In this document: in pieces, positions 4,348-19,689 of the stretch | How the letters are laid out: the number at the start of each line of letters is the position of its first letter | Numbering within the stretch: the stretch's first letter is position 1 | Source: a virus | Strand: one strand, 5' to 3' | Length of the DNA: 28,747 nt | IMG/VR virus record: IMGVR_UViG_3300042945_001394 | Location: 1-28,747 of that record | Position numbers and translations under genes: made by a program | The notes under the pieces: model-generated | Database searches by the model: none | Seen by the model: only the letters and a program-made list of their open reading frames with translations | Told to the model about the DNA's origin: nothing

Positions 4348-5220
4348 CTATCGCTTCTTATGTTCTTGGCTCACGATTTGTGGTACCGCATTCTTCCAGA
4401 TTACTTTATGGTGTAGCCGTCTATTCTTTGCTCCCATTTCAGAAATTTTTACGCAGCTAGGTGCATACATGACCGAGTAGAAGCTCTTAACGTATGTACC
4501 TAGATCGAGATAAATATCCGTTAGACCACCCTGATTGGCTTGTGTCTGTATCTGTTCGAGTCGAATCCTAGGCACTGTAACGAATAGCAAACCGAGATTG
4601 CCTAGCGTAACGTATGCGTTCACATCTTCGTTGATTCGACCCATAAACTTAAAGGGCCGCTCGGTAGCCATGAAAAACGAATTCATCGCTTTTCTAGAAA
4701 AGAGTTTTTGAGCACCGATCTTGCCAACCTTAGAGCCTGGGCCACCTACGAAATCACCACCTTGCGACATGCAAACTGCGTGGGCTTTAGACTCTATAAG
4801 AAAGTCTACGAAAGCCTCGCATATCTTATTCATGTCATTTATTTTTGTTTGCGCAGTTATATATTCGTAATCGTTGTTAAAGGTATGCCTGAACGTAGTG
4901 TAATCATCATCTAACTGCAAAAAGTAATCGATACCTAACTCTTTAGCGACCACAAAATTCCAATTGCGAGCGTATACAACCGAATTGCGTTTTCTGAAGT
5001 TATCGCCACTGTCGGTGTAGTCAATAGCCGCTTGCTTACTGAACACTACTACCTGATCTTTGTATAGCTTCTTGTATTCGTCAACCTGCGAATCTTCATC
5101 ATCTACCATTAGATATATCTTGCCAGTGTAGCCCTGCGCTCTTAGCGTCTTGCATGTGCGTACATTATTTGCTCGACCATGTGTAAGGATGAAAACGGCA
5201 AAATTATTCTTCATCTTCAT
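4348..5220 (-). CDS. TET-associated-type glycosyltransferase (predicted DNA base glycosylation)
   Basis: This 290-residue GT-A-fold glycosyltransferase resembles the family first described beside phage TET/JBP oxygenases. The N-terminus has the typical FILTHGRANNV start (9-19), KTLRAQGYTGKIYLMVDDED follows, and the metal-binding DDD is at 104-106 (LQLDDDY). An acceptor-site-like GRINEDVNAY follows later. In that family the enzyme is thought to add sugar to an oxidised pyrimidine in phage DNA, protecting it from restriction. It overlaps the ParB-like gene by 17 bases and has GAGGA 8 bases upstream. Its base composition is visibly more AT-rich than its neighbours, which suggests later acquisition. 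No TET gene is visible in the window. Confidence 0.8.
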   Translation of the reverse strand: MKMKNNFAVFILTHGRANNVRTCKTLRAQGYTGKIYLMVDDEDSQVDEYKKLYKDQVVVFSKQAAIDYTDSGDNFRKRNSVVYARNWNFVVAKELGIDYFLQLDDDYTTFRHTFNNDYEYITAQTKINDMNKICEAFVDFLIESKAHAVCMSQGGDFVGGPGSKVGKIGAQKLFSRKAMNSFFMATERPFKFMGRINEDVNAYVTLGNLGLLFVTVPRIRLEQIQTQANQGGLTDIYLDLGTYVKSFYSVMYAPSCVKISEMGAKNRRLHHKVIWKNAVPQIVSQEHKKR

Positions 5221-5971
5221 CGTAAATGTCCTCTATTTTTTTGGACAAGTTTACCCATCCGTTTTTAATCGCATCATCGAAATCGACGATCACCAACGCA
5301 GAAAGCTCCATCAATTCCTGTACTTCTTTAGATGAGTGCGCGTAATAGTCAGCGATCCTCTCGAAGTTCAAGACCACATGCCTTCCAGCCGTAAGCATTA
5401 AGAAGTCTTTTTCTTCTTGCGGTATCTTGGCTTTCTTAATCGCATCTATGATCTCGAATGCCTTCGAGTCATCGTAAAGGTCTTTAACGTTGGGCTTTTC
5501 GCCGGACGGCTCATAGGTCGGAGCTTCTACTTTCTTCGTATATGGATTGTCTTGCTCTAAGTCTACGTCGAGAATTTCTGTTAGTTCTTCTTCGTTGAAG
5601 CCTAGCAGATCGATATTAAAGTCAGAATCCTTTAGATCGGCTATCTCTAAAGCCAGCATATCCAGATTCCAGCCGGCATTAAGAGCTAATTTATTGTCAG
5701 CAATGACTAACGCCTTTCGCTCTGTATCCGATAGATGATCTAAGACTATGACCGGCACCTGCTTGAGCCCGAGCTTACGCGCCGCAGAAAGTCGGCCATG
5801 CCCAGCTACGATTACGCCATCATCGCCAACTAGGATCGGATTCGTAAACCCAAACGCCTTTATGCTGGCGGCGATCTGTGCGATTTGCTCTTCGGAGTGA
5901 GTGCGCGAATTTTTCGCGTATGGCAGTAGGCGATCAATGTCCCACTGCTCGATTCTGTCTACGATTTTCAT
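5204..5971 (-). CDS. ParB-like nuclease-fold protein with modification-linked C-domain
   Basis: Residues 1-110 are a ParB/Srx N-terminal domain: WDIDRLLPYAKNSRTH, FGFTNPILVGDDGVIVAGHG, then RLSAARKLGLKQVPVI and ADNKLAL. The box reads GHGR, as in phage ParB domains fused to DNA methyltransferases, not the GERR of chromosome-partition ParB. The C-terminal part (about 150-255) has no methylase motifs. It contains PTYEPSGEKPNVKDLYDD, an LTAGRHVVLNFERIADYYAH helix, and ALVIVDFDDAI. It is translationally coupled to the gene before it (ATGA) and to the glycosyltransferase after it. A role in targeting or regulating DNA modification is inferred from that linkage. Confidence 0.8.
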   Translation of the reverse strand: MKIVDRIEQWDIDRLLPYAKNSRTHSEEQIAQIAASIKAFGFTNPILVGDDGVIVAGHGRLSAARKLGLKQVPVIVLDHLSDTERKALVIADNKLALNAGWNLDMLALEIADLKDSDFNIDLLGFNEEELTEILDVDLEQDNPYTKKVEAPTYEPSGEKPNVKDLYDDSKAFEIIDAIKKAKIPQEEKDFLMLTAGRHVVLNFERIADYYAHSSKEVQELMELSALVIVDFDDAIKNGWVNLSKKIEDIYDEDEE

Positions 5972-6626: not shown

Positions 6627-6872
6627 TCAAACGATCTTTAGGAAATCTTGATATGCAGACTCGATCGGCTCTTCGGACCCGCGCAAACCCTTGGCCCACG
6701 CCTTCCTTGTCACTCTTAGAAGGGTATCGGCAGACGTATCGCCCCTAGCCTTACGAACGTCTGCGATGTATTGATCGGCTGCCGTTTTAGGCGTCTTAGC
6801 GGCGGCGATCTTACGCAGCAGCCATCTCACTTCGCAAAAGTGACGATAGCTTTCTGATCGCTTGTCTAGCAT
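6627..6872 (-). CDS. Small conserved phage protein
   Basis: An 81-residue protein with the pattern ESYRHFCEVRWLLR near the N-terminus and DQYIADVRKARGD followed by LLRVTRKAWAKG. This matches a family of small phage proteins of unknown function usually found next to replication genes. The start at 6872 (MLDKRSES) fits the family length; an in-frame ATG at 6896 would add 8 residues and increase the overlap with the preceding gene from 62 to 86 bases. Neither start has a strong ribosome-binding site, so translation is probably coupled. Confidence 0.65.
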   Translation of the reverse strand: MLDKRSESYRHFCEVRWLLRKIAAAKTPKTAADQYIADVRKARGDTSADTLLRVTRKAWAKGLRGSEEPIESAYQDFLKIV

Positions 6873-7362
6873 CGTCTCGCCTACAGTCTGCTCCATCTGT
6901 CTTTATCAAGTGGTCTAGTATTTCGCGCAACCTACGATCTTCCTTAGCCCCGCGCATCAGCAGATCGACCGCCTTAGCAGACCCAGGATACTTAGCCCAG
7001 TCTAGAAAATCATAATCCGGCCTACGAATCGTAGTCTGAATCTCGGCATGCATCTGCTTACCGAGTTCGGTGGCTTGGTGCTTAGGCGGCGGTAAAGCCG
7101 CTCTTTGTTCTGGTCGATTGTATTCTCGACAAAGCTGAATGAATTCAGCTAGAGCCGGAGGCCACTGCGGAGGATTCTCGGCCAGCGATCGCAAGGCAGC
7201 CTGTATTACTTCAGGCTTGGTGTTCTGTAAGAACGACTCCCAGCTAGCGGCCATCTCTTCTCGTGCTTCTGGTGCTATCTCAAAGACAGCAGCGACCTTC
7301 TGCTGCCCAAAGAGCGTACTAAAACGGAACATTATTCGCTGGAAGTAACGGAACTCTGTCAT
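6811..7362 (-). CDS. Replication protein P-like (candidate helicase loader)
   Basis: A 183-residue protein with features of lambda P-type loaders, which deliver the host DnaB helicase to the phage origin. It has an N-terminal helix with FSTLFGQQKVAAVFE, a MAASWESFLQNTKPEVIQAAL helix, and the diagnostic WPPALAEFIQLCRE around 67-80. It follows the DUF1376 replication protein, equivalent to the O-P order of lambda. The start at 7362 has AGGGGA 5 bases upstream; a second ATG at 7332 lies in the overlap with the previous gene. It has no Walker motif, so it is not a DnaC-type AAA+ loader. Confidence 0.65.
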   Translation of the reverse strand: MTEFRYFQRIMFRFSTLFGQQKVAAVFEIAPEAREEMAASWESFLQNTKPEVIQAALRSLAENPPQWPPALAEFIQLCREYNRPEQRAALPPPKHQATELGKQMHAEIQTTIRRPDYDFLDWAKYPGSAKAVDLLMRGAKEDRRLREILDHLIKTDGADCRRDDARQAIRKLSSLLRSEMAAA

Positions 7363-8098
7363 CGCTTTCCCCTGAGTTTCGCTGATACAAAAAGTCTAAA
7401 GTATCTTTCTTCTGGTCGGCTTTGCTCTTCTGAGCCCACTCGCTCTTAAAACCAACCCAGCCCCGTGTTACGCACTCTCGAAGCACAGCCTCCAGGCTAA
7501 GACCGGCCTTCCTTGCCTCTCGGCTCAATACGTCTAGCGCAGTCTGCGTGATATCCGCTCGCTTGCGCTTCCGCATCTGTACGAAGTCTGTCCAAGTCTG
7601 CTCGGTCACTTCTGGTGGGCACTCAAGCACAGGCGCACTTGTGCGCTTCTTCTTTTCTATTGGTTCTTGGTTAATGGTTAATGGTTTATGGTTTGCATTA
7701 GGGGTGGATTGGGGTGGCGATAGGGGGGCTATGGCCTCGGCATCTCTATGCTTAGCCCATCTTATAGCCGCGCCTTTTCTGCCGCCCTCAGCAATCGACA
7801 AATATCGTGCGATCTCTTCATCGCATCGCTTGTGTCGCCAAACTTGCGTTGGATTGTCATCATCACCGCCGGATTCTTCTACGAAAAACTCATGCAGTAC
7901 CTGCTGGACAGCTTCCACATGATCACGCAGGCGAATCATCCTAGCTATCTGGTCTGGCCTTCCGACTGGCGGATGTTGATGCAGATAGTAGTGATCAATA
8001 AGCCTTCGGTAGGCCAAATCCTCGATATCAGACAGATGCGAGGTGTGTGCGTAGTAGTCACCAAGATGAAACAAGAATGAATGCAAGCCAATCTCCAT
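7319..8098 (-). CDS. DUF1376-family replication initiation-like protein
   Basis: A 259-residue protein with the DUF1376 (YdaU-like) domain at about residues 8-95: FLFHLGDYYAHTSHLSDIED, LAYRRLIDHYY, RMIRLRDH. Phage members occupy the position of the origin-binding initiator. The C-terminal part (about 165-225) has WTDFVQMRKRKRADITQTAL and CVTRGWVGFKSEW, found in many phage replication proteins. Between them, DNA at 7660-7728 carries tandem 7-bp repeats and a G-rich block, arranged like an origin inside the initiator gene. The start codon lies inside a 23-bp RNA helix, and no good ribosome-binding site precedes it, so expression is probably structure-controlled. Confidence 0.85.
   Translation of the reverse strand: MEIGLHSFLFHLGDYYAHTSHLSDIEDLAYRRLIDHYYLHQHPPVGRPDQIARMIRLRDHVEAVQQVLHEFFVEESGGDDDNPTQVWRHKRCDEEIARYLSIAEGGRKGAAIRWAKHRDAEAIAPLSPPQSTPNANHKPLTINQEPIEKKKRTSAPVLECPPEVTEQTWTDFVQMRKRKRADITQTALDVLSREARKAGLSLEAVLRECVTRGWVGFKSEWAQKSKADQKKDTLDFLYQRNSGESDDRVPLLPANNVPF
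7660..7694. repeat. Five tandem 7-bp repeats (candidate origin iterons)
   Basis: Five contiguous heptamers read on the plus strand as TTGGTTC, TTGGTTA, ATGGTTA, ATGGTTT and ATGGTTT. The period of 7 is not a multiple of 3 and the encoded peptide (NHKPLTINQEP on the minus strand) is not repetitive, so the repetition is a DNA property and not a protein one. Its position inside the initiator-like gene parallels lambda ori within gene O. Confidence 0.6.
7701..7728 (+). repeat. G-rich block next to the heptamer repeats
   Basis: The plus strand has G tracts of 4, 2, 4, 2 and 6 bases within 28 bases, including two near-identical 10-bp units (GGGGTGGATT, GGGGTGGCGA). A two-tetrad G-quadruplex is possible. 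It encodes a Pro/Ser-rich linker on the minus strand. Confidence 0.45.
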
Positions 8099-8182
8099 CG
8101 GTGGACAGTCCCAGAGTGAGAATTCCGGGTCGGGCCAACCTGACGGTTGAAGATACGGGTCTGAGACCGTCCCCGATGGAGA
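8092..8182 (-). ncRNA. Leader RNA helix enclosing the start codon of the replication gene
   Basis: On the minus strand, UCUCCAUCGG (8182-8173), GGAC, G, and GUCUCAGA (ending 8160) pair with UCUGGGAC (8115-8108), U, GUCC, a bulged A, and CCGAUGGAGA (8101-8092). That gives 23 base pairs with one bulged A. Two of the pairs are G-U wobbles; on the plus strand they would be A-C mismatches, which points to a minus-strand RNA. The AUG of the DUF1376 gene (8098-8096) is inside the helix, paired with CAU. The 44-base apical part holds a second hairpin, CAACC-GUCA-GGUUG (8149-8136). It resembles a translational switch or RNA thermosensor; no known class is recognised. Confidence 0.6.
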
Positions 8183-8224
8183 CTGCTACGACCCCAACCT
8201 ATGCGCTTCTCACGGCGCAAAAGC

Positions 8225-8253
8225 ACTCTAAGACATGGCGAGCAGCCTGTAAA
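8225..8253 (-). promoter_or_regulatory. Candidate sigma-70 promoter for the replication/modification operon
   Basis: On the minus strand TTTACA (8253-8248), a 17-bp spacer and TAGAGT (8230-8225). Transcription would begin near 8218, giving a leader of about 120 bases that contains the whole start-codon helix. The -10 matches consensus at 4 of 6 positions. Confidence 0.45.
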
Positions 8254-18961: not shown

Positions 18962-19168
18962 ATGCGAGACAATGACCAGGATCGCTTCTGGCATGAGTAT
19001 CAACGCCAGCAGCAAGAAGATGAACGGCGAACATTAGAAATCTTGCACGAGGAAAAGATGAGAGAGCTTAACAATGAACGCGCCCAGCGCATCAATAACT
19101 GGCTTAACTTGATCGGCGGCAGTATCGTAGGCGCTCTGCTGGCAGTTATCATCTACTTCACGCTATGA
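18962..19168 (+). CDS. Small tail-anchored membrane protein, 68 residues
   Basis: Highly charged Gln/Glu/Arg-rich helix from about 5 to 45 (WHEYQRQQQEDERRTLEIL) and a C-terminal membrane helix, NLIGGSIVGALLAVIIYFTL. A cytoplasmic coiled coil with a C-terminal anchor would place it on the inner membrane. Its stop overlaps the oxygenase start. Function unknown. Confidence 0.65.
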   Translation: MRDNDQDRFWHEYQRQQQEDERRTLEILHEEKMRELNNERAQRINNWLNLIGGSIVGALLAVIIYFTL

Positions 19169-19689
19169 GAGAGCATGGCGTAGTCTTGGTGCGAACGATC
19201 GAGCCGAAAGTTTGCACCGAGCTTATTTCGCTCGCTAATGACAAGCCTTTGCGCGGTCGTATAAACACAGATACGGGCGTAGCCATAGATGCCATGCGAG
19301 ATGTAGACGTATGGCCGCTCGATAACTGGGTAAAAGGCCTTATGTCCGATCTGGCCGACGAAGCAAACGAGACACTCGGCTATGCGTGCGACGGCTTGCA
19401 AGAGCTTCCGCAGCTTTTACGCTATCAAGCCCCGTCTGCTCATTACGGCTGGCATACAGACATGGGTGAAGGTTTTGCCAGGAATCGCAAAATAAGCCTG
19501 ATCGTGAACCTTAATGAAGGCTACGAAGGCGGCGATTTCTGGGCATTCCTAGACGGCCCGTATAAGCTGCCGCTCAAGCGAGGTATGGCGATCGCATTTC
19601 CATCTTGGATGCCGCACAAGATTGGCCGAGTAAGCAAAGGCGAGCGGTGGTCGCTGGTAGCCTGGATTTCCGGTCCTGAATTACGGTAG
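19165..19689 (+). CDS. 2-oxoglutarate/Fe(II)-dependent oxygenase, prolyl-hydroxylase-like
   Basis: A 174-residue dioxygenase of the P4H-like superfamily. Iron ligands are H97 and D99 in GWHTDMGEG and H151 in WMPHKIGRV; R161 in GERWSLVAW binds 2-oxoglutarate. KISLIVNLNEGYEGGDFWAF between them is the typical strand and Gly-Gly turn. Phage enzymes of this type hydroxylate proteins or, in some families, bases. The substrate here is unknown. It coexists with a TET-associated-type glycosyltransferase at 4348-5220, but sequence alone does not place it in the TET/JBP family. A folded RNA element follows its stop at once. Confidence 0.85.
   Translation: MREHGVVLVRTIEPKVCTELISLANDKPLRGRINTDTGVAIDAMRDVDVWPLDNWVKGLMSDLADEANETLGYACDGLQELPQLLRYQAPSAHYGWHTDMGEGFARNRKISLIVNLNEGYEGGDFWAFLDGPYKLPLKRGMAIAFPSWMPHKIGRVSKGERWSLVAWISGPELR

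Follow-up and report, generated by a model that had tools for sequence, protein, structure and literature searches.

The window analysed here is the whole 28,747-nt stretch of IMG/VR virus record IMGVR_UViG_3300042945_001394 (positions 1–28,747). Its minus strand carries a DUF1376 gene whose product, judged by its Pfam and PHROG matches, resembles phage replication initiators of the O-like or primosomal type, and the next gene of the operon weakly matches a P-like helicase loader (Table 1). The intergenic segment ahead of the DUF1376 gene, at about 8218–8089, forms its structured leader of ~130 bases. This leader is predicted to be a 5'-terminal RNA with two pseudoknots that extends from the first transcribed base to a few bases before the start codon, with nested helices P0, P1, P3 and P4, and crossing helices PK-A and P2.

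Table 1 The leader and its neighbouring genes in the window (columns: feature, positions, strand, basis)
−35 box TTTACA	8248–8253	−	TTG(A/C) equally far from P0 in 70 distinct upstream regions
−10 box TAGAGT (family TAnnAT), 17-nt spacer	8225–8230	−	pattern and conserved position
Transcription start (predicted) at the initial G of P0	8218	−	inferred from conserved −10 position
P0 hairpin GCGC-CGUGAGAA-GCGC, within UGCGC-CGUGAGAA-GCGCA (stem 8218–8215/8206–8203)	8203–8218	−	compensatory GC/AU, CG/UA
PK-A 5' strand GUGAGAA, the P0 loop	8207–8213	−	pairs with 8122–8116, covaries
P2 5' strand GGUUGGG, crosses P1/P3	8193–8199	−	compensatory changes in 7/7 pairs
P1 5' strand CAGUCUCCAUCGG (anti-SD)	8173–8185	−	covariation and folding
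P3 5' strand GGACGGUCUCAGA	8160–8172	−	covariation and folding
P4 apical hairpin AACC-GUCA-GGUU	8137–8148	−	covariation
P2 3' strand CCCGACC	8128–8134	−	covariation
CGGAA, joins P2 and PK-A	8123–8127	−	invariant in 64-sequence set
PK-A 3' strand UUCUCAC	8116–8122	−	pairs with P0 loop, covaries
P3 3' strand UCUGGGACUGUCC	8103–8115	−	covariation and folding
Bulged A between P1 and P3	8102	−	folding; mostly A across family
P1 3' strand CCGAUGGAGAUUG, holds the SD	8089–8101	−	covariation and SD survey
Shine-Dalgarno (SD) GGAG, paired within P1 3' strand, 6 nt before UUG	8093–8096	−	homologue survey
Start codon UUG of DUF1376 gene	8084–8086	−	homologue starts
DUF1376/O-like replication initiator, 255 aa	7319–8086	−	PF07120, E 1e-16; PHROG primosomal and O-like matches
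Weak P-like helicase loader, next operon gene	6811–7362	−	phrog_109, E 6e-4

Alignment of 70 distinct upstream regions on P0 revealed TTG at −34 and TAnnAT at −11 to −6. The promoter proposed at 8253–8225 by the first-pass annotation, which was made from the letters of the window, is thus real as a pattern. Its constant spacing from P0 points to a sigma-70-like promoter with predicted initiation at the P0 base; from the fixed distance of the −10 box and the usual spacing, we infer that the first transcribed base is the first G of P0. Judged by the position of the promoter, transcription would therefore start ahead of the 5' arm of the long helix, and not downstream of it. No terminator-like site was found in the leader region, which favours translational over transcriptional control.

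Two viral contigs encoding a 56–57% identical DUF1376 protein have this leader as well, with other letters at the paired positions. A first pattern, consisting only of the two short strands GTGAGAA and CGGAATTCTCAC, matched 71 IMG/VR contigs, nearly all of which have a replication gene directly after the element. Further patterns, one on P0 alone and two on the P3 region with PK-A left free, yielded more contigs. A covariance model, R1, recognised the element in 72 complete contigs and one partial contig of the first set in 69 of the second, and in three divergent members (L186, L227 and L258) that were found only via the protein, giving a total of about 145 IMG/VR contigs with the element besides the window. 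The expectation that the helix would accompany the conserved gene was borne out in part: 7 of the 80 best DUF1376 loci selected by protein alone carry the element, while most distant DUF1376 phages use an int-alpA-type RNA or none.

The first alignment, of 64 sequences, had 94.1% of its cells paired, compared with 32–44% in slid controls, and both sides had changed in 27 of the 47 pairs. The alignment fitted to the model (76 distinct sequences), which leans towards P0, P1, P3 and P4 with PK-A and P2 left out of the model, gave 96.5% standard pairs among 3546 pair cells and compensatory changes in 39/47 pairs, so that the homologues do hold the compensatory changes on which the first-pass annotation had staked its proposal. 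The covariation score of this alignment was 0.476, compared with 0.178 after shuffling and about 0.05 after sliding; shuffle counts are not to be read as probabilities here, because the sequences are related. PK-A and P2 were paired in 98.7% and 92.7% of cells, respectively, although they lie outside the fitted model, and both showed strong covariation. Variants of PK-A include GUGGAAA/UUUCCAC, GUGACAA/UUGUCAC, GUGGC/GCCAC and CUAGAAA/UUUCUAG, and the helix covaries also in sequences that were gathered without reference to it. Both main sequence groups contain the GUGGAAA form, as do divergent members, and it therefore probably has multiple origins. The unpaired invariant core is small, comprising CGGAA and CCG.

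In the window, P1 and P3 (13 bp each) form a 26-bp rod with a single bulged A and an energy of −46.7 kcal/mol. The rod had previously been described as a 23-bp helix with one bulged A; the helix and the bulge stand, but the length does not, since CAG/UUG lengthens P1. The hairpin noticed in its apical part is P4, while both pseudoknots had gone unnoticed. In P2 (7 bp), the segment after P0 is paired with a segment inside the P3 loop. Folding of the minus strand gave an MFE of −58.5 kcal/mol (z −3.1, with 0/200 shuffles as good), compared with −52.6 kcal/mol (z −2.4) for the plus strand, and the covariance model scored the minus strand at 114.5 bits and the plus strand at 17.6 bits, in agreement with the initial view that the element is best as a minus-strand RNA. 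G-U pairs are common at several positions, accounting for 36/76 cells at columns 52/152, for example. The intergenic position adjoining a replication gene would suit a DNA-level feature, with the pairing reflecting an inverted repeat, a protein site or an origin; since G-U pairs are so common, the bit score differs so strongly by strand, and crossing helices make no sense as cruciforms, this explanation is very improbable. The similar order of its crossing helices also brought an HDV-like ribozyme into consideration; it was rejected by eye, as the conserved P0 and PK-A lie upstream of the would-be cleavage site and no catalytic motif was seen.

The AUG that had been taken for the start codon of the DUF1376 gene (8098–8096) lies inside P1 and is not conserved, many homologues having AAG or other letters there, whereas the position of the UUG is where homologous proteins begin, with residues like M-H-Y-Y-Q-F. 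Among 68 homologous genes with a recognisable start, 25 begin with GUG, 25 with UUG and 18 with AUG, so that 50/68 have a weak start (GUG or UUG). Likewise, the gene had been said to lack a clear ribosome-binding site, but GGAG is present and buried by P1. In the 68 homologues, the SD (AGGAG, GGAG, AGGA, GGGG or AAGG) is located inside P1, 4–9 nt (mostly 5–7, typically 6) before the start, with a median unpaired probability of 0.0006. At the SD-facing columns 51/153 and 52/152, 0/76 cells are unpaired and changes in the 5' strand are nearly confined to C–U exchanges, indicating that pairing with the G's of the SD is maintained. Placement of the SD within a conserved, covarying helix before the next gene is what characterises an SD-sequestering cis-regulatory leader, and supports the central claim of the first-pass annotation, a minus-strand leader kept by compensatory change that sequesters the translation-initiation signal of a phage replication gene. 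Its suggestion of an RNA thermosensor, in which melting of P1 with temperature frees the SD, fits the location of the SD in a helix but fared badly: the SD remained paired from 20 to 60 °C (unpaired probability <0.002 in a nested folding model), showing no release, and a thermosensor is the most improbable of the explanations considered.

Of the 66 ORFs that come first after the leader, 59 match the start motif of DUF1376, and Pfam assigns a further one (L088) to DUF1376. The remaining loci that were checked have replication initiators of different PHROG families, directly or further downstream: a non-DUF1376 initiator follows the leader directly in L130 and L163 and after a short gap in L168 and L039, and in L050 and L064, as well as by its letters in L060, an HTH_36-type initiator comes after an HNH gene. 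The N-terminal domains of the initiators behind this RNA are thus unrelated (DUF1376, HTH_36 type, RIRTIKPEF type and others), and, on the evidence of these gene assignments, the RNA is tied to the slot heading the replication operon and not to one protein. In L050, L060, L064 and L097, the HNH-type endonuclease gene between leader and initiator uses the SD and start position of the leader.

This variety of initiators weakens the case for autoregulation by DUF1376. In an autogenous operator, the replication initiator would bind the leader and repress its own synthesis, like T4 gp32. The layout invites the comparison, as in the gene 32 operator of T4 and RB69 a pseudoknot at the 5' end likewise precedes the SD of a phage replication gene (PMC535899), and P0, PK-A and P2 lie at the predicted transcript start. 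The gene 32 operator comprises a single pseudoknot of about 28 nt and a less structured UUAAA-type RBS region coated by gp32 (PMC535899), whereas the leader described here has ~130 nt, two pseudoknots, an SD that is itself within a 13-bp helix, and a variable downstream gene. The variability of the downstream initiator argues against gene 32-type repression by the encoded protein, and we regard an autogenous operator as distinctly improbable, although a shared C-terminal domain could serve as the leader binder in some initiators. The E. coli alpha-operon (uS4) leader is likewise a pseudoknotted leader governing translation initiation, but differs in its ribosomal-protein target and in acting through ribosome entrapment (PMC10931766).

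We propose that the leader is probably a translational gate on the replication-initiation operon that is opened by a trans-acting trigger, with both the repression and the trigger being conjectural parts of the model. Comparative sequence data, namely the covarying structure, the pairing of the SD, the position of the promoter and the association with replication initiators, underlie the proposal, and the predominance of weak start codons agrees with it. In the closed form, P1 would pair the SD with the anti-SD strand, P3 would prolong P1 into the 26-bp rod, and P0, PK-A and P2 would form a pseudoknotted receptor domain around the rod, so that synthesis of the replication initiator is restrained. 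The putative trigger would open P1, allowing translation of the replication genes, and the gate could in this way set the timing of replication. The trigger would most likely be a factor recognised by the pseudoknotted domain; alternatively, it could be cleavage of the rod. Counting against the gate are the cost of opening the rod, the small invariant core, the short stretch between P2 and P1, and the rarity of the element among DUF1376 loci selected by protein.

Because a rod of −46.7 kcal/mol is costly to open, cleavage and co-transcriptional escape are serious alternatives. In the phage lambda N leader, cleavage by RNase III reportedly frees the SD and activates translation. That leader also has a long helix in an early phage transcript, but is not known to contain pseudoknots, compared with two in the leader here. 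Cleavage of the P1+P3 rod by RNase III could similarly activate translation, and among homologues the rod is kept as a near-perfect duplex of 24–26 bp while its sequence changes; in L025, two matching bases are inserted on both sides of P3. An RNase III-processed leader would have no need of the strongly conserved pseudoknots, however, and we consider this explanation unlikely.

A further alternative is a metastable timer, in which the pseudoknotted form arises first during transcription with the SD open, and the stabler P1+P3 rod later shuts translation. The 3' strands of P2 and PK-A are transcribed ahead of those of P3 and P1, which suits such a timer. Across homologues, just 4–10 nt separate P2 from P1, compared with a rod of 24–26 bp, and this leaves two options: P2 may dock along the rod, or P2 and the complete rod may be alternative states, as a timer would have it. 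Possible coexistence of the pseudoknots and the rod speaks against the timer. In the window, the 5' strand of P3 can form a local hairpin with the bases after it (8172–8155), as it can in most homologues. L025 and L033 have lost this hairpin, its mean z is only −1.1, and as a conserved competitor of the rod it is suggestive but not universal; a timer is on balance unlikely.

A ligand-sensing riboswitch, with the pseudoknotted domain as aptamer and P1 as expression platform, is unlikely to about the same degree. The double pseudoknot, the SD in the last helix, the invariant CGGAA and CCG and the occurrence of the same leader ahead of unrelated initiators are all consistent with it. Typical ligand aptamers have more invariant unpaired core positions than this leader, and its small core, the lack of association with metabolic genes and the lack of a match to any known class speak against a riboswitch.

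No Rfam 15 family reached its gathering score in the window or in the elements of 15 homologous loci, and a search of the window at E ≤ 10 returned only sub-threshold matches in the region, far below gathering. The leader is thus a real structured RNA outside Rfam, of the cis-regulatory leader kind. The literature searched contained no paper linking DUF1376 with a structured RNA. In other phages the slot of the leader, immediately before DUF1376, is occupied by int-alpA RNA (RF02996), with a covarying pseudoknot of its own; that RNA differs in its fold of about 71 nt with a CUAG and CGAAAAG core, and has no visible sequence or structural similarity to the leader. Matches to the RF02996 model were confined to other DUF1376 loci (L008 and L197), the window having none.

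Inspection of the loci from two protein searches revealed about 30 distinct int-alpA-type RNAs (CGGCUAG...CCGAAAAG...CCUGCC) directly upstream of DUF1376 (L008, L010, L018, L020 and among L184–L261), few of which reach the Rfam gathering score. Their loop pairs with a 3' segment (TCTTCAC/GTGAAGA, TTATCAC/GTGATAA, GAACTCCC/GGGAGTTC and others), forming a covarying pseudoknot that is unpaired in the Rfam structure line. A third kind of element, a long inverted repeat with a T run at its end and apparently unrelated to the other two RNAs, lies upstream of DUF1376 in L245 and L262 (phage MW202520).

A broader and tentative reading, possible though doubtful, is that the leader represents a new class of two-state switches (ligand-sensing or metastable) in uncultured phages that times the onset of replication whatever the initiator, with int-alpA, an unrelated RNA, filling this role in sister phages. 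Returning to the leader as a gate, the presence of the same RNA before several unrelated initiator families suggests that the conserved part of this control point is the leader and not the initiator protein. The analysis contributes a structured RNA family with good support, not present in Rfam, that is linked to the start of phage DNA replication, provides a ready test system for phage replication timing, and suggests what the orphan int-alpA RNA, located at the same place in sister phages, may do.

A search of named phages and plasmids for DNA similar to the element gave no real match, the weak 27-nt matches falling inside annotated genes, and the element was not found in named phages with related DUF1376 proteins (L262–L265). 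One exact pattern (the GUGAGAA form only), searched in 84,980 bacterial and archaeal species genomes, matched once (L093), by chance, and this match was discarded as a carrier. The carriers therefore seem to be phages outside cultured collections that are rarely caught as prophages.

Two further features of the window were noted. Within the DUF1376 gene, positions 7651–7694 hold a stretch of 35–43 bases that is 90–97% identical in phages with much less alike proteins and contains the iteron-like AACCATAAACCATTAACCATTAACCAAGAACCAAT. By analogy with lambda O, whose gene contains the replication origin, this stretch is possibly a replication origin inside the initiator gene. Elsewhere, the window encodes a TET-associated glycosyltransferase (4348–5220), a ParB-like protein (5204–5971) and a 2OG-Fe(II) oxygenase (19165–19689), a set of predicted genes suggesting that the phage may have hypermodified DNA.
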